Shown piece after piece: positions 14,198 through 45,119 of a stretch of DNA of 58,952 nt (positions are counted from its first letter, which is position 1; every line of letters begins with the position of its first letter). This DNA comes from Caldifarciminota bacterium SM23_42. Its GTDB lineage: Bacteria; Hydrothermota; Tepidihabitantia; SM23-42. The position numbers and the translations under genes are program-made. The notes beneath the pieces are model-generated. The model made no database searches and was not told where the DNA came from. It was given only the letters and a program-made list of their open reading frames with translations. The stretch lies in contig LJUJ01000021.1 of NCBI GenBank assembly GCA_001303785.1, positions 1 through 58,952 on the forward strand. The letters are read 5' to 3'.

Positions 14198-14225
14198 TTG
14201 ACAATGCACTATATGTGATTAGAAT
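14198..14225 (+). promoter_or_regulatory. Sigma70-type promoter of the TRAP operon
   Basis: TTGACA (14198-14203), 16-bp spacer, TAGAAT (14220-14225). Predicted start near 14232, giving a leader of about 40 nt with GAGGAGG (14259-14265) before the GTG start. Confidence 0.6.
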
Positions 14226-14271
14226 ATCACATCAGTGTATCGCTAGCCTTATAAACGCGAGGAGGATATTT

Positions 14272-15273
14272 GTGCAAAAACTGAGTTTCGTATTGGCAGT
14301 GCCAGTCATCGTGAGCATGTGTTTTGTTGGTTGTGGAGCAAAGGAAACTCGTTTTGTCACAATAGGTACTGGAGGCGTGACTGGTCTCTATTATCCCACG
14401 GGTGGAGCAATAAGCAGGATGTTGAACAAAAGATTCAAGCAGTTCGGGATCAAGGCGACAGTGGAATCGACTAGCGGTTCGGTGTTTAATATTAACGCTG
14501 TAATACAGGGTGATATGGAATTCGGGATTGCTCAATCAGACAGGCAGTATCAAGCATACCATGGCCTCGCCGAATGGTCTGAGTCAGGACCCCAAGCCGA
14601 CCTGAGAGCCGTATTCTCCATACATGCCGAGCCTATCACACTGGTCGTATCAGAGCAGTGTGGCATAAGAGACATCGGCGATATGCGCGGGAAGCGAATA
14701 AATCTTGGGAATCCCGGTTCCGGGCAACTGCAGAATTCCAGAGATGTATTGGCTGCGGCTCGTCTTTCGGAAAACGATATATCGGCTGAATATGTCAAGG
14801 CGGTCGAAGCACCCGGACTTCTTCAGGACGAACGTCTCGATGGCTTTTTCTACACTGTCGGACATCCAAACGGCAATATTAAGGAAGCGACGTCGGGAAG
14901 AATCAAGGTGCGTATTGTACCGATCCGGGGTGAGAAAATAGACAAAATGGTCGAAGATTATCCGTATTACGCGAAGGCGTTGATCCCCCATTCATTTTAC
15001 CCGCGTGCTTTGAACTCTGAAGATATAGAGACAATCGGCGTTAAGGCGACGTTCGTCACGTCGAGAGATGTTGATGAGGCGTTAGTATACGCTTTGGCCA
15101 AAGTCGTCTTTGAGAATCTGGAAGATTTCAAATCATTGCACCCGGCTTACAAATATCTTACCCGACAGAATATGCTACAGGGGCTCACCGCACCGGTCCA
15201 TCGGGGAGCCATGAGATACTATCGAGAGGTCGGTCTTGATGAAAATATCGAGCATGAATTAATTGTCGACTAG
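14272..15273 (+). CDS. TAXI-family TRAP transporter solute-binding lipoprotein
   Basis: 333 aa. The GTG at 14272 is chosen because GAGGAGG lies 6 nt upstream and it directly opens a lipoprotein signal peptide (lipobox FVGC, Cys21). The mature part starts with FVTIGTGGVTGLYYPTGGAI, the TAXI-type signature, followed by GSVFNINAVIQGDMEFGIAQSD and GKRINLGNPGSG. It captures a substrate, often a dicarboxylate or glutamate-like compound, outside the cytoplasmic membrane for the permease encoded at 15367. The substrate cannot be read from sequence. Confidence 0.92.
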   Translation: MQKLSFVLAVPVIVSMCFVGCGAKETRFVTIGTGGVTGLYYPTGGAISRMLNKRFKQFGIKATVESTSGSVFNINAVIQGDMEFGIAQSDRQYQAYHGLAEWSESGPQADLRAVFSIHAEPITLVVSEQCGIRDIGDMRGKRINLGNPGSGQLQNSRDVLAAARLSENDISAEYVKAVEAPGLLQDERLDGFFYTVGHPNGNIKEATSGRIKVRIVPIRGEKIDKMVEDYPYYAKALIPHSFYPRALNSEDIETIGVKATFVTSRDVDEALVYALAKVVFENLEDFKSLHPAYKYLTRQNMLQGLTAPVHRGAMRYYREVGLDENIEHELIVD

Positions 15274-15321
15274 GTTGCATGGATGCATTACTGAGATGTA
15301 TGTGTCGATCATAATCGCGCG

Positions 15322-15347
15322 GTGGGTCTTCAGTGCCCACTTTTTTT
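15322..15347 (+). terminator. Terminator-like hairpin between TRAP genes (possible attenuator)
   Basis: GTGGG (15322-15326) pairs with CCCAC (15336-15340), extended by one T-G pair, and is followed directly by seven T (15341-15347). It lies between the binding protein and the permease of one transporter. Partial read-through would give more binding protein than permease. Confidence 0.55.
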
Positions 15348-15366
15348 ATCTCACATTAGCTGAAAT

Positions 15367-17406
15367 ATGCGCAAGACCACAGAGCTGAAGCGAGCTGAGC
15401 AAATACTCAAAGAAGAAACCGGGCGTATCAGGCAAAAACGATGCATTGACCGATATGTCGTTTCATCAATCGCGGTGGCTTGGGCAGTGTTTCAACTCGC
15501 CTTGCCGCGTTTCATTATTCTCGATAGCGTGACCATACGGGCAATCCATCTGGCATTTGCCGTTGCTTTGGTGTTCTTGACCATACCTATGTTCAAACGT
15601 AGATGCGGGATAAAGGCATTGAGTGCCAGGAAATACATACCCGCGATTGACTTCATCTTTGCCGCGGTCGGCTGTCTTTTTGTTCTGTATATTGTCATCG
15701 ATTGGACCGGAATATCAATGCGCGCCGGGGTTCCGAACACAAGAGACATAATCATAGGTATTTGTTTGATCCTTATTGTGCTTGAATCTTCACGTCGCGT
15801 CATAGGTTTGCCGCTTGTGATAATCGCTATCCTTTTTACACTCTATGCTTTTTTCGGTCCGTATATGCCGGCGATTTTTGCACTGCGCGGTGTTTCTCTA
15901 GCCAAATATCTGAGTCAGGTAGCATTGTCAACCGAAGGTATATACGGAATCCCATTAGATGTGTCAGCCAATACTGTTTATTTGTTTGTGCTCCTGGGTG
16001 CAATGCTCGAACGTGCCGGAGCAGTCAATTTCTTCAATGATCTTGCAATATCACTACTGGGTCGATACAAGGGTGGTCCTGCAAAGGCTGCAGTTGTGGC
16101 GAGCGGACTTACTGGTTTGGTCTCCGGTTCGAGCATTGCGAATGTTGTCACTACCGGTACATTCACGATCCCGTTGATGAAGAAAGTCGGGTACCCAGGT
16201 AAAATTGCTGCGGCAACCGAGGTCGCGGCGAGCACTAATGGACAGCTCATGCCGCCGATCATGGGTGCTGCGGCTTTTATTATTGCCGAATATTTGAGCG
16301 TCCCGTATCTTGAAGTAGTAAAAGCTGCTGCGATCCCGGCATTCGTTTCTTATTTTGCCCTGTTCTACATTACTCATCTCGAGGCTTCGAAGTTGGGCAT
16401 GCGCGGACTGCCAAGATCAGATATTCCACGCTTCGGTGCAGTCATGAAGAACGGATTTTACTACCTTATTCCTCTTTTCCTGCTGCTCTATGAGCTGATG
16501 GTCGTACGACACACACCAAAGCTCGCGGCTTTCAATGCGATAATGGTTCTCATGTTGATCATCGTAGTTCGGGAAGTACACAAAGCCTTGGGTGCAGAAA
16601 GTGGTATCGTAAAATCGCTGATAAGAGCAGGCAAGACCATTGGCAATGGTTTTATTGCTGGTTCGCGTAATATGCTGACTGTCGCCCTGGCTACTGCCTG
16701 TGCCGGTATCGTTGTAGGAATTGTAACAATGGGTATCGGCAGCATGATCGTCCAGATTGTGGAAATACTCTCCGCCGGTAATATTTTTTTATTATTGTTG
16801 ATCACGGCGACCGCGAGCCTGATAATCGGTATGGGCCTGCCAACAACGGCGACCTATATTGTCATGGCATCAATTACCGTTCCGATAATCATCAGGTTAA
16901 GTGCGCGTGGCGTGGTTGATTTCGTTCCGGCCATGGCGGCGCATCTGTTCTGCTTTTATTTTGGTATACTTGCCGACGATACACCGCCGGTTGGTTTGGC
17001 AGCGTATAGCGCGGCGGCCATCGCCAAGTCGGACCCAATCCCGACAGGCATTAAGGGCTTCACTTATGATTTGAGGACGGCGGTGATTCCTTTTATGTTT
17101 GTCTTAAATGCGGAGCTCATTCTCTTCGGTGTGCATAACCTCGCACAGGCACTACTCATCTTCGCCATGGCGGCATTCGGTGCATTTGCCTTTGCAAACG
17201 CCGTTCAGGGGTGGTTTGTATTGAAGAACAAGATCTACGAGATACCGTTATTCTTGATCGCATCGGTCATATTCTTTTATCCGGCGTTGGTCACGAATTT
17301 ATTGAATTTAAGCTACGAAGTGAGATATTATATGTACGGTGCAGGATTCTTAATTTATGGTTCTGTATACTTGATGCAGAGGTTCAGACAAAGAAGTCGC
17401 GAATAG
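15367..17406 (+). CDS. TRAP transporter fused (DctQM-type) permease
   Basis: 679 aa, nearly all transmembrane (about 16-18 helices). The N-terminal helices correspond to the small Q-type subunit. The large M-type part shows the characteristic GLTGLVSGSSIANVVTTGTFTIPLMKKVGYP, AAATEVAASTNGQLMPPIMGAAAF and later MGLPTTATYIVMASI. Adjacent small and large domains in one chain are the usual partner of TAXI binding proteins. It performs secondary, ion-driven uptake at the cytoplasmic membrane. No clear ribosome binding site precedes the ATG. A hairpin with a T-run lies 20 nt upstream. Confidence 0.92.
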   Translation: MRKTTELKRAEQILKEETGRIRQKRCIDRYVVSSIAVAWAVFQLALPRFIILDSVTIRAIHLAFAVALVFLTIPMFKRRCGIKALSARKYIPAIDFIFAAVGCLFVLYIVIDWTGISMRAGVPNTRDIIIGICLILIVLESSRRVIGLPLVIIAILFTLYAFFGPYMPAIFALRGVSLAKYLSQVALSTEGIYGIPLDVSANTVYLFVLLGAMLERAGAVNFFNDLAISLLGRYKGGPAKAAVVASGLTGLVSGSSIANVVTTGTFTIPLMKKVGYPGKIAAATEVAASTNGQLMPPIMGAAAFIIAEYLSVPYLEVVKAAAIPAFVSYFALFYITHLEASKLGMRGLPRSDIPRFGAVMKNGFYYLIPLFLLLYELMVVRHTPKLAAFNAIMVLMLIIVVREVHKALGAESGIVKSLIRAGKTIGNGFIAGSRNMLTVALATACAGIVVGIVTMGIGSMIVQIVEILSAGNIFLLLLITATASLIIGMGLPTTATYIVMASITVPIIIRLSARGVVDFVPAMAAHLFCFYFGILADDTPPVGLAAYSAAAIAKSDPIPTGIKGFTYDLRTAVIPFMFVLNAELILFGVHNLAQALLIFAMAAFGAFAFANAVQGWFVLKNKIYEIPLFLIASVIFFYPALVTNLLNLSYEVRYYMYGAGFLIYGSVYLMQRFRQRSRE

Positions 17407-37155: not shown

Positions 37156-38217
37156 TCACGATTTTAGCGCTTTCCAGACTATATCGTTTAGGTTTTTGAC
37201 TTGAATACTACCGTTGCCCTTTTCCTTCATTACGGCAGCTGCTTTTTTTAAGACCTGTTCGCACGTTGGACATGGTGTAATGAGAAGCGGCGCACCCGTA
37301 GCTATTGCCTGTTTAATACGAAGGCTAGCAATATCATCCGAGAGGTTCACATCTGACATCAATATACCGCCGCCCCCGCCGCAACATTGGGATGTTTTTC
37401 TGTTTTGCGGCATCTCGATGATCTCTACACCAAGTTTTTTCAAGATCTCGCGCGGTTCTTCAGTGATTCCCATGACTCGAGAAAGATCACAGGGGTCATG
37501 GTACGTGGCTTTTAAACCAAGATTCTTTTCTGGCAGATGTTCAAGTATGGCCTGAGTTATATGCTTCACGTTTTTGCCATATTCTTCGTGAATATATGCG
37601 GCGCACGTCGGGCAGAGAGCGACGATATCCTTTTCCGGGTACAATTCCAGGAATTTCTTCTTATGTTCTTCGAATTCTTTTCTAAAACCCAATGCATGAA
37701 GTGGGTATCCACAACATATTTCATCCTTGATCAGTGGCTTCACGCCCAGTTTCTCGAGTATTTTAAGGTACATCTTTGTCTGATTAGGGCGCGCAAGATA
37801 CTGGCATCCGATGAATACAGGCACATCACCTTGCTGCGTCGGTGCCTTTATTTCTTTGTCGCCAAAGATATTGCCGGTTTCTTTGACATTCTTCGCCATA
37901 CCTTTGTGTGTATCAGATGCGAAACCAGCCTCGACCAGATCTGCTCTTGCTGCTGCAAGGATATCTACTACCGAAACATTGGCTGAACATCGCTCAGAAC
38001 AATCCCTGCAATATGTACACTGGAATAATTTGTCTGCAATATATTGTGATGGTTCAAGCTCGCCGCTAACTACTCCGTAGGCGAGAATGGTTTTTCCTCG
38101 TGCTGTGTCTGTTTCCCAACCCGTAACCTTGAAGACCGGACAGCCTTCAAAACAATAGGCACATCTTATGCAAATGTTTAATTCATTGTTCCATTCTTTC
38201 AGGTATTTCTTCGCCAT
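37156..38217 (-). CDS. GlpC/HdrB-type (Fe-S) oxidoreductase subunit with CCG domains
   Basis: 353 aa. Two N-terminal 4Fe-4S motifs: CIRCAYCFEGCP and CTYCRDCSERC. Two cysteine-rich CCG-type domains follow: FIGCQY...EICCGYPLHALG with CPTCAAY, and HDPCDLSRV...SQCCGGGGG with CPTCEQV. This matches the subunit that accepts electrons from FAD-dependent 2-hydroxyacid dehydrogenases or reduces disulfides. It is encoded 8 nt after the GlcD-type gene. Together they probably form a membrane-peripheral or cytosolic D-2-hydroxyacid dehydrogenase complex. Confidence 0.93.
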   Translation of the reverse strand: MAKKYLKEWNNELNICIRCAYCFEGCPVFKVTGWETDTARGKTILAYGVVSGELEPSQYIADKLFQCTYCRDCSERCSANVSVVDILAAARADLVEAGFASDTHKGMAKNVKETGNIFGDKEIKAPTQQGDVPVFIGCQYLARPNQTKMYLKILEKLGVKPLIKDEICCGYPLHALGFRKEFEEHKKKFLELYPEKDIVALCPTCAAYIHEEYGKNVKHITQAILEHLPEKNLGLKATYHDPCDLSRVMGITEEPREILKKLGVEIIEMPQNRKTSQCCGGGGGILMSDVNLSDDIASLRIKQAIATGAPLLITPCPTCEQVLKKAAAVMKEKGNGSIQVKNLNDIVWKALKS

Positions 38218-38225
38218 GTTTTCTC

Positions 38226-39662
38226 CTATTCCACTGGATATCTTATTTCAGTTGCGCTAAACCAATCTTCGGGTGCATCCTGTAATTTATGCGGATTTAA
38301 TATATTATTTGGATCGAATGCTTTTTTGATTGCTTTCAGCATGGCGAGAGAGTCTGCCTTTTCTTTTTTCCATGCAGGTGCTTTCGAGAGCCCTATACCA
38401 TGTTCGGCCGAGGTTGTGCCACCAACTGAGCGGACATATTCATAAACTTCTTCCACCGCCCGTTTTGCGCCTTCCCACTGTTCCTTCTTTGTCGGATCCA
38501 TCAATATCTTTGTATGCATACAACCTGAACCACAGTGTCCATAGGCAGTCATCACTACATTGTTGCGCTTGGCTATCTCATGGATTTTGCTGGCACACTC
38601 TGCCATTTTTGAATAAGGAACTGCCATATCGTCAGCCAATGATGTGCAAGACAGTCCCATTTGATATCGTGACAATGCAGCAAACAATTTTTTCCTTCCA
38701 GCGTATAGTTTTGTCCTTATTGCGGTATCATAGCTCATTTCAATACCATAACCATTATGCTTTTCACAAATTTCCTTCATGAGTTTCATTTCGGCATCTA
38801 CAGTTTCTTTCACTTTTCCATCTGCCTCAAACATTACAATTGCCTCGACATCAGGCAGACCCATTTTTAGTGTTGTGTTTACAGCCGTAATGGCGATGTT
38901 ATCCATCAACTCCAGCATAGATGGTAGCGCGCCGGTTGCGATTATTTCAGATATAGATTCGCCGGCATCTTTCAATTTGTCGAAATTTGCTCTGGCAAGA
39001 CAGCGGAATTTCGGTATTGGTTTCAGTAGCAATGTCGCTTCAACAATTATTCCGAGCGTGCCTTCAGAACCAACCATGAGTCTGTCGAGTTGGTAACCAG
39101 ATGCTTCTACGCGTGTATTTGAGCCTAGGGTAATCAAATCGCCATTGGCAAGCACGACCTTCATTCCAAGAACAGAATCCCGTGTTGCCCCGTATTTTAC
39201 AGATCGTATTCCAGAGGCATTATTGGCGATTTCTCCTCCAATCGTTGCGACCCTGCTTGATGCCGGTGCTGGTGGGTAAAAAAGACCGTGTGGCTTGAGC
39301 GCTCTATTCAAATCATCATCTACTACTCCTGGTTCAACTCTGCAGAGCATATCCTCGGGACGTATTTCAAGAATACGGTTCATTTTCTTCATATCCATTA
39401 CAATCCCGCCGTCGATTGGAACTGCCTGACCAGACATGCCAGACCCCGAACCGCGCGCTATAACGGGTATGAGTTCGGCGTTTGCATAACGCAATATTGC
39501 CTGTACCTGTTCTGTTTTCGTAGGTCTTACTACGACTGAAGCTAAGGCTTTGTGTACGGACGAATCAGACCCATATATATAAAGGTCGGCAATATCGTTC
39601 TTAATATTATCAGTGCCGACAATATCTTCTAGTTTTCTGACGCTATCTTTCGTTATTGGCAT
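38226..39662 (-). CDS. GlcD-type FAD-binding D-2-hydroxyacid dehydrogenase
   Basis: 478 aa. The PCMH FAD domain reads VIARGSGSGMSGQAVPIDGGIVMDMKKMNRI, with VEPGVVDDDLNRALKPHGLFYPPAPASSRVATIGGEIANNASG and SEGTLGIIVEATLLLKP. The C-terminal FAD-oxidase domain carries YGHCGSGCMHTKIL and SAEHGIGLSKA with conserved His residues. It likely oxidises D-lactate, glycolate or a similar D-2-hydroxyacid. AAGGGGG precedes the start. Upstream lies the lipoyl protein gene, downstream the Fe-S subunit. Confidence 0.94.
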   Translation of the reverse strand: MPITKDSVRKLEDIVGTDNIKNDIADLYIYGSDSSVHKALASVVVRPTKTEQVQAILRYANAELIPVIARGSGSGMSGQAVPIDGGIVMDMKKMNRILEIRPEDMLCRVEPGVVDDDLNRALKPHGLFYPPAPASSRVATIGGEIANNASGIRSVKYGATRDSVLGMKVVLANGDLITLGSNTRVEASGYQLDRLMVGSEGTLGIIVEATLLLKPIPKFRCLARANFDKLKDAGESISEIIATGALPSMLELMDNIAITAVNTTLKMGLPDVEAIVMFEADGKVKETVDAEMKLMKEICEKHNGYGIEMSYDTAIRTKLYAGRKKLFAALSRYQMGLSCTSLADDMAVPYSKMAECASKIHEIAKRNNVVMTAYGHCGSGCMHTKILMDPTKKEQWEGAKRAVEEVYEYVRSVGGTTSAEHGIGLSKAPAWKKEKADSLAMLKAIKKAFDPNNILNPHKLQDAPEDWFSATEIRYPVE

Positions 39663-39785
39663 TTAACCCCCTTACTTCCCATAAATATCTGTGGAATACT
39701 TTCTGTAAACTGTGAAATTTTCTTGAGTATTCCTTACATCCTCAAAACTCTAGTCTAAATCGCTCTTTGTGGCTAGGAATTGTTA

Positions 39786-40220
39786 TTACTCACCACCTCG
39801 GCCCGCTTTGTCGATATGGTCCTGAATGAATTTCTCCAGAACTTCAGGACCGTGTGCGAGATTCTTCAGTTCCTCTTCAAGGTTGGACGGCTTGATCTTC
39901 ATGATCCAGCCGGCACCATAGGAATCGTTGTTGATCAAACGGCAGTCACTTTCCAGTTCGCTGTTTACCTCTACTATTTCACCGGAAATGGGTGATACTA
40001 GTTTGCCTACCCATTTTGATGATTGGATCTTACCACAAGTCTCTCCTTGACTCACGGTATCACCTTCGAAAGGCATATCGATGTAGGTCGTCTCTCCTGC
40101 TTGTTTTTGGTAAAAATCATCCATACCGACTCGCACCGTTCCATCGTCTTCAAGCTTAACCCAGGTGTTTTCCTCATGATAATGCAAATCGTCAGGCATA
40201 TTATAGCCCTGGATTTCCAT
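39786..40220 (-). CDS. GcvH-like lipoyl-domain protein
   Basis: 144 aa; GGAGGCGTCAA precedes the ATG. It follows glycine-cleavage H protein: HEENTWVKLEDDGTVRVGMDDFYQKQAGE, YIDMPFEGDTVSQGETCGKIQSSKWVGKLVSPISGEIVEVNSEL and GAGWIMKIKP. Lys69 in QSSKW aligns with the lipoylated lysine; the usual Glu-Ser-Val-Lys is changed to Gln-Ser-Ser-Lys. No other glycine-cleavage genes are in the window. It is first in an operon with the FAD dehydrogenase and CCG protein. A lipoyl relay there is a hypothesis. Confidence 0.85.
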   Translation of the reverse strand: MEIQGYNMPDDLHYHEENTWVKLEDDGTVRVGMDDFYQKQAGETTYIDMPFEGDTVSQGETCGKIQSSKWVGKLVSPISGEIVEVNSELESDCRLINNDSYGAGWIMKIKPSNLEEELKNLAHGPEVLEKFIQDHIDKAGRGGE

Positions 40221-40410: not shown

Positions 40411-41793
40411 TTACATTTCTGTATACATGTGATACACCGACTCTTCGATTTCCTTGGGCAGCTCCGCGGCCTTGTATCGAGTGGCCGGTATTCCCTTTTC
40501 CCATCGGCTGGCATAGATGAACTTCTTGGGTCGGTAGACCAGACGCTTTCTCACCTTGGGTACTGTGAGACTCGCATTCATCAGGAAAAGGATTCGTTCC
40601 TCGCCCTTCTCAACTATTGCCGCGTCAATTGCCTCTTGCAGGGTATGGAATGGCCTGATGAAGATGCTCTCGAGTAGCTTATCCTCAAGACTCGTGACTG
40701 CCCACATCTGAGCCCAACGTGCTATTTCGGCCATCTTGGCTGCTTTGTGATATCCCAGTTTGAATTCCTTGTCGATTTTGTCCAGGGTCTCTTGAGGTGA
40801 GTGACAACTGCTAAGCAATTTAATGAAAGTATCGCTTCCCACGCCCATGCGACACTTAGAAACGAGTATTAGAATACCGTTATCATTCAACGCGAACTTG
40901 CCATTATCTAAAGCCTTTTGCGACTGATACAGATCGATATCCATGGGATATGGCGCCACGGCCACAACAATATCTGCCTTTTCTTTTATTTCAACTGAGA
41001 AAACCTGATGTGCCCTTTCTATTGCTGCTTCAAGCGATTCGGTGATGTCGCCTGCGGTGGCGGCGTAGATGCGTTCATTACGATCTAAAACGGTCATGAT
41101 AGAAAATACTTCTTTTTCCTTGATGGTTAGAATGGCGTCTTCCATATCCTCATGTACGGGATTGCCTTGGAGACTGAGTGCTTTGGCACTCGCCTTTAGT
41201 GCAAGTTTGTGGTTCTGTTCGATCGTTCTGTAAGCGGCAATGCCGGGTAAAAATGATTTTCTGCCTCCGGTGTAGCCAGCGAAATAGTGCGGTTCAACAG
41301 ACCCGATGATGACAATTTTGTGTGCCTCGACCGCCATTTTGTTGACGTACATCTCGGTGCCGTTTTTCGACGTGCCCAGATGAACCATGTCCTCGTCTTT
41401 TTTGGAATCGTGAGCAGATATTCGGTCCTTGAGCGTTTCGTAGAGTTCTCCAAATATCTCAAGGTATTCTTCCTCGGTTGGTGCCCGGTGCATACCTGTA
41501 GCAATGAGGAATTTGGTATTTTTGTCTTTTATCTTCGGATAAATAATCTTCAGTACCTTGGCAGTCGGTGTCGGTCGTGTTGCGTCATTGACTAAGAACA
41601 AGATGTCTTTGGCGTCGTTCAGGAATTCGTCAAAATTGCTCGAAGAAATAGGATCTGCCAAGGCTTGCTCGATGATCTGCTCTTCGTCTCCGATTTTCAC
41701 GTCATTGGGAAATACGGTCTCACCGATGTTCCGTTCTTCGACGTGCACGTTGATTGTCTCTCTTCCGTATGGTATTCCAACTCTTAGCTTCAT
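40411..41793 (-). CDS. larA: LarA-family nickel-dependent 2-hydroxyacid racemase (copy 1)
   Basis: 460 aa. Active-site positions known from Lactiplantibacillus LarA are all present with the same spacing: Asp70 and Arg73 in NDATRP, His102 in GMHRAP, His169 and Lys179 in EPHYFAGYTGGRK, His195 in EQNH, and Gln/Lys in YQSQK. The lysine carries the nickel pincer cofactor in LarA. LarA homologues racemise lactate, malate and related 2-hydroxyacids; sequence alone does not decide. The cofactor genes larB, larC and larE are not in the window. It is the last gene of the minus-strand series and lies 33 nt after the mdh paralogue. Confidence 0.92.
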   Translation of the reverse strand: MKLRVGIPYGRETINVHVEERNIGETVFPNDVKIGDEEQIIEQALADPISSSNFDEFLNDAKDILFLVNDATRPTPTAKVLKIIYPKIKDKNTKFLIATGMHRAPTEEEYLEIFGELYETLKDRISAHDSKKDEDMVHLGTSKNGTEMYVNKMAVEAHKIVIIGSVEPHYFAGYTGGRKSFLPGIAAYRTIEQNHKLALKASAKALSLQGNPVHEDMEDAILTIKEKEVFSIMTVLDRNERIYAATAGDITESLEAAIERAHQVFSVEIKEKADIVVAVAPYPMDIDLYQSQKALDNGKFALNDNGILILVSKCRMGVGSDTFIKLLSSCHSPQETLDKIDKEFKLGYHKAAKMAEIARWAQMWAVTSLEDKLLESIFIRPFHTLQEAIDAAIVEKGEERILFLMNASLTVPKVRKRLVYRPKKFIYASRWEKGIPATRYKAAELPKEIEESVYHMYTEM

Positions 41794-41825: not shown

Positions 41826-42761
41826 TTAGATGATTCCCAGGTTCTCCAATTTTTCTATCACGGTCTTAACTGCCGAAGCTGAAGTATGCAAAGCTTCTCT
41901 TTCTTCCGGAATGAGTTCGAGTTCGATGATCTTTTCAACGCCGTTCTTGCCCAACATAACTGGTACACCGACAAACAGCCCCTCGATGCCATATTCACCT
42001 CTTAAATAAGCAGAGCATGGCAGAATTCGTCGCTTGTCCCGGACTATGCATTCGACCATCTTGGCAACCGCAGCCGCTGGCGCATAATAGGCACTACCGG
42101 TCTTGAGATAACCGACGATCTCTGCTCCGCCCTTGCGAGTTCTTTCTATTATTTTGTCTATGTCATCTTTGGACATCAATTCCGTGATTGGAATACCGGC
42201 AACGGTTGAATACCTTGGCAAAGGAACCATGGAATCACCGTGACCACCTAAAACCATGGCGGTTGTGTCGATGACGGAGATTCCGAGTTTGTTGGAGACG
42301 AAATACCGAAATCTAATTGAGTCAAGTATGCCAGCCATTCCAACGATTCTCTTCAAAGCGAACCCTGTAGTTTTCAACGTCAGATAAGCCATGACGTCGA
42401 GTGGATTGGTAACCATAATTATTATTGAATTAGGTGCATATTGTGCAGCTTTTTCAGAGACCGATTTTATGATCTTGGCATTAGTGTTCAATAGGTCATC
42501 ACGGGACATCCCTGGCCGTCTGGCGATGCCGGCAGTTATGACCACTATATCTGAGTCGACCATGCAAGAGAAATCTGTGCAACCCCTTAGTTCGATATCA
42601 TAGCGGCGTATCGGTGCGGCTTCTTCGGCATCGAGCGCTTTACCTTCGGGGAGTCCTTCAACGATGTCAACAAGATACACATCGGCAATTTTGTGTTCAG
42701 CCAAGTAGAGGGCCACAGAGCTTCCAACGTTCCCCGCGCCGATAATGGTAACCTTTTTCAT
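41826..42761 (-). CDS. mdh: Malate dehydrogenase (NAD-dependent L-2-hydroxyacid dehydrogenase)
   Basis: 311 aa. The N-terminal Rossmann motif IIGAGNVGSS is followed by Asp at VDIVEG. Specificity Arg81 in the loop GIARRPGMSRDDL (Arg, not Gln, marks malate/oxaloacetate), catalytic Arg87, Asn119 in TNPLDV, Asp147, Arg150 and His174 in GGHGDSM are all present. This is the lactate-like type of malate dehydrogenase. It is preceded by AGGAGGAAAT and the stop of the paralogue 15 nt upstream. Confidence 0.93.
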   Translation of the reverse strand: MKKVTIIGAGNVGSSVALYLAEHKIADVYLVDIVEGLPEGKALDAEEAAPIRRYDIELRGCTDFSCMVDSDIVVITAGIARRPGMSRDDLLNTNAKIIKSVSEKAAQYAPNSIIIMVTNPLDVMAYLTLKTTGFALKRIVGMAGILDSIRFRYFVSNKLGISVIDTTAMVLGGHGDSMVPLPRYSTVAGIPITELMSKDDIDKIIERTRKGGAEIVGYLKTGSAYYAPAAAVAKMVECIVRDKRRILPCSAYLRGEYGIEGLFVGVPVMLGKNGVEKIIELELIPEEREALHTSASAVKTVIEKLENLGII

Positions 42762-42776
42762 TTTTATTTCCTCCTC

Positions 42777-43700
42777 TTAGATTTCCAGGGTATCCACTGC
42801 ATTCTTGATGACTGCAACCGATTCCTCGAATTGATGCCGTTCCTCGATGGTTAGTTGAAGTTCGATCACCTTCTCCACGCCTTTCGCACCGATTATTGCT
42901 GGTACACCGAGGCATAAGTCTTTCACATCATACTCACCCTGTAGACATGCGGAAACACACAGTACGCGCTTCGAGTCTTTGATGATGGCTTCAACAATCT
43001 CTGCGAGCGCCGCGGCCGGAGCATAGTGGGCTGTAGCTGTCTTCAGGTATGAGAGGATTTCGCTACCTGCGGCTCTGGTGCGTTTAACCAAATTATCGAT
43101 CTTTTCTTGAGGTAATAATTGCGTAATTGGTATACCCTCGACACTAGCGTATCTCGGGATTATTACCATGTAGTCGTGATGCCCGCCGATAACCACAGCG
43201 GTTGTGTTGGCGGTGGAGACCTGTAGTTCTTTGGAAATAAACTCGCGAAATCGTGTTGTATCCAAGACTCCGGTCATGCCGATCACTTTCTTTGGGTCGA
43301 ACTTACCTTTCTTCCAAATGTAACAGGTAAGAGCATCAACGGGTTCGGTAATGTTTATTAGTATTGCTCCCGGCGCATACTGTTTGATCTGAGGAATGAT
43401 AGTATCAATCACTTTCGCGTTTGTTTCTAGTAGGTCGAGTCGAGACATCTGAGGCTTTCTTACATGCCCAGCAGTGATGACCACGACTTCCGAACCGGCG
43501 ATATCTTCGATATTGTCAGAACCGTCTATTTTGGCGTCGTAATACCTGACTGGTGCAGCTTCCATTAGGTCCAGTGCCTTTCCTTTTGCGCGACCTTCGA
43601 CCACATCGATGAGCATGACGTCAGCGAAGTTCTTCTCGCCAATATAGAAGGCTGCATTTGCTCCGACATTTCCTGCTCCGATTATGCTTACCTTCTTCAT
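42777..43700 (-). CDS. Malate dehydrogenase paralogue with altered active site
   Basis: 307 aa, clearly related to the protein encoded at 41826 (same IIGAGNVGAN N terminus and 2-residue-for-2-residue alignment through position 180). Arg81, Arg87, Asp147, Arg150 and His174 are kept. The invariant Asn119 of TNPxD is Glu (ITEPVDAL), the loop Gly after Pro83 is Gln (RKPQMSR), and the residue after His174 is His (GGHHDYM). These sites contact substrate and nicotinamide, so substrate or cofactor use is likely different. AGGAGGAAT precedes the start. A promoter of its own lies at 43833-43860. Confidence 0.85.
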   Translation of the reverse strand: MKKVSIIGAGNVGANAAFYIGEKNFADVMLIDVVEGRAKGKALDLMEAAPVRYYDAKIDGSDNIEDIAGSEVVVITAGHVRKPQMSRLDLLETNAKVIDTIIPQIKQYAPGAILINITEPVDALTCYIWKKGKFDPKKVIGMTGVLDTTRFREFISKELQVSTANTTAVVIGGHHDYMVIIPRYASVEGIPITQLLPQEKIDNLVKRTRAAGSEILSYLKTATAHYAPAAALAEIVEAIIKDSKRVLCVSACLQGEYDVKDLCLGVPAIIGAKGVEKVIELQLTIEERHQFEESVAVIKNAVDTLEI

Positions 43701-43832: not shown

Positions 43833-43860
43833 ATTATAACTATTTCGGTTAAGAAGTCAA
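43833..43860 (-). promoter_or_regulatory. Internal promoter between larA copy 2 and the mdh paralogue
   Basis: On the minus strand TTGACT (43860-43855), 16-bp spacer, TATAAT (43838-43833). The -35 box overlaps the end of the upstream larA gene (43857). The leader to the start at 43700 is about 126 nt. The dehydrogenases and the second racemase can therefore be expressed without the first gene. Confidence 0.65.
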
Positions 43861-45119
43861 CAAGGCACCGTATTTCGAACAATGGGTACGGTCAGACTGC
43901 CATCCATCAGAAACAGTATTCTGGCATGTCTGCCTTTTTCTGTTATCGCTTGCTCAATTGCTTTTTGAAGTGAACGAGAAGTCATGATGCCCGCATTTTG
44001 CAGGAGTCGGTCTTCGATTTCCGTGATCGTCCACACATGAGCCTGTTTTGTGGTAGCCAAGAGGTTCACTGCATTATGGTCACCCAAATGGTAACGTGAC
44101 TTTGAATTCTCGACTGCATCCTGGATACTGCTTTGATCCTTGAACAGGCGCGCGAAGCTGTCAGGCCCGAGGCCTTCGGGACAAGGAGAGACTACGATCA
44201 GTATGCCGTCCTGATTCAGGGCCAGTCTGCCGTGTTCAATTGCCTTAAGGGTCTGGTATAGATTAACATCGAAAGGCGGTTGGGACACCGTGACAACAAT
44301 GTCTGCTTTCATCGGTATTTTTGCCGAGAAGTACTTCTGGGCATGCCGGACAGCCATATCGAATGTTTCGCTAATAGGCCCGGTAAAGGCTTTGTAGATG
44401 TTGTGATTCTTGTCGAGCACCATCTGGAATGAGAATATTCTCTCGGGACCAAAAGCCTGTACACAATCAAGCATCTCTTCATGGATTGGGTTGCCGATGA
44501 GGTTCAACGCCCGCGCCTTGGGGTGTAATGCGAATTTATGATTCTGCTCAATTGTGCGGTAGGCAGCAACACCCGGCAACAGAGACTTCCTGCCTCCGGT
44601 GTAGCCAGCAAAATAATGGGGTTCGACTGATCCGATGACGACTAGCTTATCGCAGGACGTGATTTTTTTGTTTAGCCATAACTCGTTGCCGTATCGTGTT
44701 TTGCCAAGATATGCGTGTCGGGTGTTATCCCGCGCGTCGTGGATTGTGATTTGCTCTTTGTAGCGGCCGTAGTGCTTGCCAAATATTGAATGAAGATCTG
44801 TTTCACACGGTGCCGAATGCGCACCGGTACCGATGATGAATTGAGTATATTGCAGTTTGATATTTCCATTGATCACATCGAGCACCTCGGATGTTTTGGT
44901 TGGCCGTGTCGCATCGTTTATTACAAAGAGCACGCGTGTTCTTGTCTTGAGGAATTCGCTTAGTGACTTGTTACCGAGCGGTCTCCTAATTGCCTGCTCC
45001 AAGATGATGTTGGGTCGCTCACGCCTGACTTCTTGGGGATAGGTGATTTCGAGGATGTTTTTATCGGCAATGGTTATTTCGATATTAACGGATCCGTAGG
45101 GTATTAATATCTTCTTCAT
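43857..45119 (-). CDS. larA: LarA-family nickel-dependent 2-hydroxyacid racemase (copy 2)
   Basis: 420 aa. The same active-site set as the other copy: Asp69 and Arg72 in NDATRP, His101 in GAHSAP, His168 and Lys178 in EPHYFAGYTGGRK, His194 in EQNH, and Gln/Lys in YQTLK. The first 25 residues and the region after the first His differ between the copies (H-R-A-P-T versus H-S-A-P-C), and this copy lacks about 40 C-terminal residues. Different substrates are plausible. The gene is first of the minus-strand series, about 97 nt after a promoter. Confidence 0.9.
   Translation of the reverse strand: MKKILIPYGSVNIEITIADKNILEITYPQEVRRERPNIILEQAIRRPLGNKSLSEFLKTRTRVLFVINDATRPTKTSEVLDVINGNIKLQYTQFIIGTGAHSAPCETDLHSIFGKHYGRYKEQITIHDARDNTRHAYLGKTRYGNELWLNKKITSCDKLVVIGSVEPHYFAGYTGGRKSLLPGVAAYRTIEQNHKFALHPKARALNLIGNPIHEEMLDCVQAFGPERIFSFQMVLDKNHNIYKAFTGPISETFDMAVRHAQKYFSAKIPMKADIVVTVSQPPFDVNLYQTLKAIEHGRLALNQDGILIVVSPCPEGLGPDSFARLFKDQSSIQDAVENSKSRYHLGDHNAVNLLATTKQAHVWTITEIEDRLLQNAGIMTSRSLQKAIEQAITEKGRHARILFLMDGSLTVPIVRNTVPC

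Follow-up and report, generated by a model that had tools for sequence, protein, structure and literature searches.

A malate dehydrogenase paralog of candidate division WOR-3 with glutamate and histidine at two otherwise unvarying active-site positions

Introduction

The lactate and malate dehydrogenases (LDH/MDH) are a textbook family for the evolution of substrate specificity. In apicomplexan LDH, HicDH and FrsC, for instance, substrate recognition was altered through the duplication or divergence of a dehydrogenase; in these proteins, position 102 is changed or the 102–109 loop carries an insertion, and the other catalytic residues stay in place (PMC4109310, PMC9299796). In crystal structures of MDHs, Asn140 belongs to the first shell of the active site (PMC4109310), and in docking work on human LDHA, Asn137 and Gly193 touch one ligand beside NADH (PMC12299506). 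Furthermore, charged groups have been linked to the NAD+/NADH preference of LDH/MDH enzymes (PMC3877072). For variants at position 140 or for malate dehydrogenases of WOR-3, our literature search found no study directly on point.

Here we describe MDH2, an LDH/MDH-superfamily protein with Glu119 and His175 that is encoded at 42777–43700 on the minus strand of the window, by which we mean the whole 58,952-nucleotide stretch of DNA analyzed. Judged from its close relatives, the genome from which the window stems is a member of candidate division WOR-3. In the following, we compare MDH2 with its paralog MDH1, its orthologs and the solved members of the family, and discuss what its altered active site may be for.

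Family membership

The MDH2 open reading frame encodes a full-length protein of 307 residues, in which both Pfam domains of the family, Ldh_1_N and Ldh_1_C, are recognized (124.6 and 102.3 bits). With 374.3 bits, it passes the cut-off of the curated equivalog model MalateDH_bact (TIGR01763; 351.85 bits), so that standard annotation would call it a malate dehydrogenase; its ortholog in the more distant WOR-3 genome G072 scores 373.3 bits. Against the L-lactate dehydrogenase model, MDH2 stays below the cut-off (251.7 vs 303.55 bits), and it has Arg81 where LDH has Gln102. An AF2 model of the protein has a pLDDT of 94.8, and its best PDB matches are all full-length MDHs or LDHs (Z 45–46). With the TIGR01763 enzymes of Thermaerobacter marianensis (7aob) and Chloroflexus aurantiacus (4cl3), MDH2 shares the full-length fold at the same Z-scores, 44–51% sequence identity, the residues Arg81, Arg87, Asp147, Arg150 and His174, and a glycine-rich NAD motif with Asp32, which presumably argues for NAD rather than NADP as the cofactor. 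It differs from them in the replacement of Asn119 by Glu and of Gly175 by His, and in a clade-specific block of residues (Val80, Leu88, Tyr127, Ile/Val180 and Cys248).

The source genome encodes exactly two proteins with an LDH/MDH N-terminal domain. The second, MDH1 (41826–42761, minus strand), is an ordinary malate dehydrogenase with the usual motifs TNPLD and GGHGD, in agreement with the first-pass annotation, which had described the neighboring paralog as normal.

The altered active site

Glu119 (codon 43344–43346, minus strand; LDH position 140) lies in the context LINITEPVDAL, and His175 (codon 43176–43178, minus strand; LDH position 196), which adjoins the catalytic His174, in IGGHHDYMV, where GGHHD replaces GGHGD. 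Both codons were read directly. They bear out the two substitutions that had first drawn attention to the protein, as does the alignment to solved malate dehydrogenases, which is gapless in this region and places the Asn of TNP opposite Glu119; we looked for an alignment shift that would restore an Asn at this position and found none. Glu119 and His175 are present in 11/11 MDH2 sequences, which come from the window and from ten other genomes in two WOR-3 families, whereas all 44 other LDH/MDH sequences have Asn and Gly. These 44, on which the invariance of Asn140 as stated here rests, comprise MDH1 orthologs, further MDHs from WOR-3, MDHs and LDHs of bacteria and archaea that are encoded on plasmids, and three sequences from the PDB.

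The remainder of the catalytic machinery is in place, as had been claimed: Arg81, Arg87, Asp147, Arg150 and His174 are invariant in an alignment of 33 sequences and kept in all 11 MDH2 proteins. In superfamily numbering, His174, Asp147, Arg87 and Arg150 are residues 195, 168, 109 and 171, and Arg81 is Arg102. Thus, among the features expected of a malate dehydrogenase, MDH2 has the arginine for the C4 carboxylate, but it lacks both the first-shell Asn140 and the glycine that follows the catalytic His in GHGD.

Other residues are also found exclusively in MDH2, namely Val80, Leu88, Leu/Ile124, Tyr127, Tyr/Phe177, Ile/Val180 and Cys248, all of them near active-site elements in the sequence. Residue 84 is of a different kind. 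The Gln reported after Pro83 is indeed there in the window, but close orthologs have Gln, His or Glu at this position and the G072 protein has Gly, and we therefore rejected Gln84 as a defining feature of MDH2.

This pattern bears on one rival reading of the protein, a plain second malate dehydrogenase isozyme in which Glu119 and His175 are compensated and have little effect on substrate or direction. The family score (374 vs 352 bits), the unchanged fold and the retained Arg81 for the C4 carboxylate would all suit such an isozyme. Yet Asn119 and Gly175 do not vary in the 44 other sequences, which reach into the lactate dehydrogenases, and a neutral swap at both sites, followed by their fixation while residue 84 drifts, is improbable; we regard this reading as distinctly unlikely.

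By motif position, Asn137 and Gly193 of human LDHA would correspond to positions 119 and 175 of MDH2. Since the former two meet at one ligand and Asn140 belongs to the first shell, Glu119 and His175 probably line one wall of the pocket, where they may contact each other. Related enzymes of the LDH fold, those of family GH4, bind a metal near NAD, and one may ask whether Glu119, with His174 and His175, holds a metal or an ammonium group of the substrate. MDH2 would then have a chemistry new to the family and might, for example, be an aspartate dehydrogenase or an oxidoreductase that depends on a metal. The catalytic His has, after all, gained a carboxylate and a second imidazole as neighbors, and the two are co-fixed even at 61% identity, in the G072 protein. 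However, we know of no metal-binding precedent in LDH/MDH proper, and the added carboxylate would have competing partners in Arg87 and Arg150; we regard this explanation as improbable.

Orthologs, phylogeny and selection

Our profile search covered the WOR-3 phylum. It recovered MDH2 orthologs from nine further genomes of the same WOR-3 family (78–96% identity) and from G072, which belongs to a different one (61% identity). When short peptides of MDH2 were scanned against all of GTDB, a procedure that reaches close relatives only, WOR-3 loci alone were returned, and a scan of viral contigs with just two generic N-terminal patterns found no relatives. MDH2-like proteins may exist outside WOR-3, beyond the reach of the profile search.

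In a maximum-likelihood tree, the MDH2 proteins form one clade (support 100/100), sister to MDH1 (99/94), with a joint support of 99/98; MDH1 and MDH2 are 49–53% identical and belong to one gene cluster. Glu119 accordingly marks a clade. The statement that the substitution is not lineage-wide was correct for the other MDH of the genome, but not for the MDH2 paralog, across which it is universal. The stem of MDH2 is much longer than that of MDH1 (0.41 vs 0.12), and its tips are then as short as those of MDH1. Where dS is measurable, dN/dS of MDH2 is mostly about 0.01–0.02, a rough measure given that most dS values are saturated, and dN is similar to that of MDH1 over the same genome pairs. Rapid change at first and strong constraint thereafter leave such a pattern; decay does not.

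That the unusual residues might reflect decay, misassembly or misalignment is practically out of the question: they recur in ten other WOR-3 genomes with intact reading frames and dN/dS of about 0.01–0.02, and the codons were read directly. We therefore rejected pseudogene status, sequencing error and misalignment, even though a further MDH2-type copy in G072 (C11; L064:6832–7775) is truly broken, across three frames, with TEPVD and HHDYM still present. Instead, the fixed swap of two otherwise unvarying active-site residues points to a gene preserved for a new job.

Ten relatives of the same family that are at least 79% complete (G008–G013, G016–G018 and G021; WOR-3 family f1) yielded no LDH/MDH match. 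MDH2, MDH1 and the racemase homolog LarA1, discussed below, thus look like an accessory block that is gained or lost together.

The conserved gene neighborhood

In the window, 15 nt separate the stop codon of MDH2 from the start of MDH1, which lies behind an AGGAGG of its own. The two genes are adjacent in every genome with MDH2, 11–23 nt apart, and the order MDH2-MDH1-LarA1 recurs in each of the 11 genomes, G072 among them; in G006, the break between two contigs falls inside MDH2 and divides the group.

This arrangement is the basis of the main rival to a neofunctionalized enzyme, according to which MDH2 is a partner subunit: assembled with MDH1 into hetero-oligomers, it would adjust the affinity, direction or allosteric behavior of MDH1, while its own active site would be altered or silent. 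Tetramers are common among LDH-like MDHs and appear in the PDB titles of the structural matches. MDH1 also has changes of its own, at positions 45–46 in helix 37–52. The strict adjacency in one order and the equal rates of the two proteins would fit a heteromeric partner just as well as an independent enzyme. It would be surprising, however, if a silent subunit had retained His174, Asp147, Arg81, Arg87 and Arg150 in 11/11 sequences, and we consider a partner role unlikely, if worth serious attention.

LarA1 (40411–41793, minus strand) is a homolog of the nickel-pincer racemases, and the model nearest to it is that of malate racemase (LarAH6). A second, divergent homolog, LarA2, is encoded upstream of MDH2 (43857–45119, minus strand). 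Both share the catalytic and cofactor residues of the malate racemase Mar2 (LarAH6, 6d6z), but both score below the curated cut-off of its family. LarA1 additionally retains the Lys and Gln-Lys positions of Mar2, of which the Lys and Gln have been tied to malate binding (PMC7583248). In LarA2, the G[A/Y]HK of Mar2 and LarA1 is replaced by GDHN, and the Lys to which the second carboxylate has been assigned is missing. With 43–70% identity between genomes, LarA2 evolves far faster than its neighbors; it is probably a racemase for another 2-hydroxyacid. It usually precedes MDH2 but is absent beside it in three loci (L037, L039 and L063), so that an obligate substrate partnership of LarA2 with MDH2 has become less plausible. 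Of the three loci, L037 and L039 are fragments of contigs, but both extend to the next gene upstream of MDH2. LarC is encoded in the source genome, so that the nickel cofactor can probably be made.

The MDH2-MDH1-LarA1 group is usually followed by GcvH, together with either a GlcD/Fe-S pair or a fused GlcD. In the window, these are a GcvH-like lipoyl carrier protein (39786–40220), a GlcD-type FAD-linked 2-hydroxyacid dehydrogenase (38226–39662) and an Fe-S protein with two CCG domains (37156–38217), which is HdrD/GlpC-like and pairs with GlcD, all on the minus strand. LarA homologs are often found near COG0247 and COG0277 oxidoreductases (PMC7583248). It is possible that across 37156–40220, the lipoyl carrier serves the hydroxyacid dehydrogenase; a second GcvH of the source genome lies on contig C58. 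G000, G006 and G020 have separate GlcD and Fe-S genes, about 84–92% identical to those of the window, whereas G002, G003, G005 and G007 carry at the same place an 832-residue GlcD/Fe-S fusion (L034:11808–14306) of only about 45% identity, which looks like gene replacement in situ. Elsewhere in the window, at 14215–17406, a solute-binding protein and a large fused permease resemble, by eye, a TAXI-type TRAP transporter.

Proposed function

A changed function of MDH2 is well supported: its pocket residues are fixed together, the purifying selection on it is strong, and its operon is conserved. Since both carboxylate-binding arginines and the His-Asp pair are retained, MDH2 is probably an active enzyme whose substrate is a C4 dicarboxylate. 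We put the probability at roughly one half that MDH2 is an old tandem duplicate that was neofunctionalized and works oxidatively or on a close analog of malate.

MDH2 would thereby have arisen as an ancient tandem duplicate of the adjacent MDH1 and have kept NAD-linked hydride transfer. Arg150 and Arg81, whose retention argues for a substrate that has remained a dicarboxylate, would hold a C4 dicarboxylic acid by its two carboxylates, and His174 and Asp147 would remain the acid/base pair. The wall near the substrate C2 and the nicotinamide, usually formed by Asn119 and Gly175, would be rebuilt by the Glu119-His175 pair. Going by charge alone, the added carboxylate, paired with the new His, may disfavor tight binding of a 2-keto dianion (oxaloacetate) and favor a protonated group at C2 (hydroxyl or ammonium), cationic NAD+, or both. 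The first-pass annotation had proposed a substrate with a positive or amino group, or a changed cofactor state, either of which is possible. On the best reading, the substrate would be a 2-hydroxy (or 2-amino) acid of the C4-dicarboxylate class. Most likely, MDH2 would chiefly oxidize its substrate, or act on a close analog of malate, beside MDH1 and the malate-racemase-like LarA1.

Conclusion

On a more tentative note, it is possible that this WOR-3 branch of the LDH/MDH family uses the Glu119-His175 pair for a reaction or assembly new to the family. Coupled to a nickel malate racemase, MDH2 might be a dehydrogenase that takes 2-amino-dicarboxylates or is assisted by a metal, or else one half of an obligate heteromer with MDH1. 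Curated models label proteins of the MDH2 type as malate dehydrogenases without notice, and the residue changes are thus hidden. Unlike apicomplexan LDH, HicDH and FrsC, MDH2 keeps Arg102 and the length of the loop: where the documented shifts of specificity considered here use position 102 or its loop, the MDH2 clade changes positions 140 and 196. With its unmodified sister alongside, MDH2 is a natural experiment on residues thought to be immutable.
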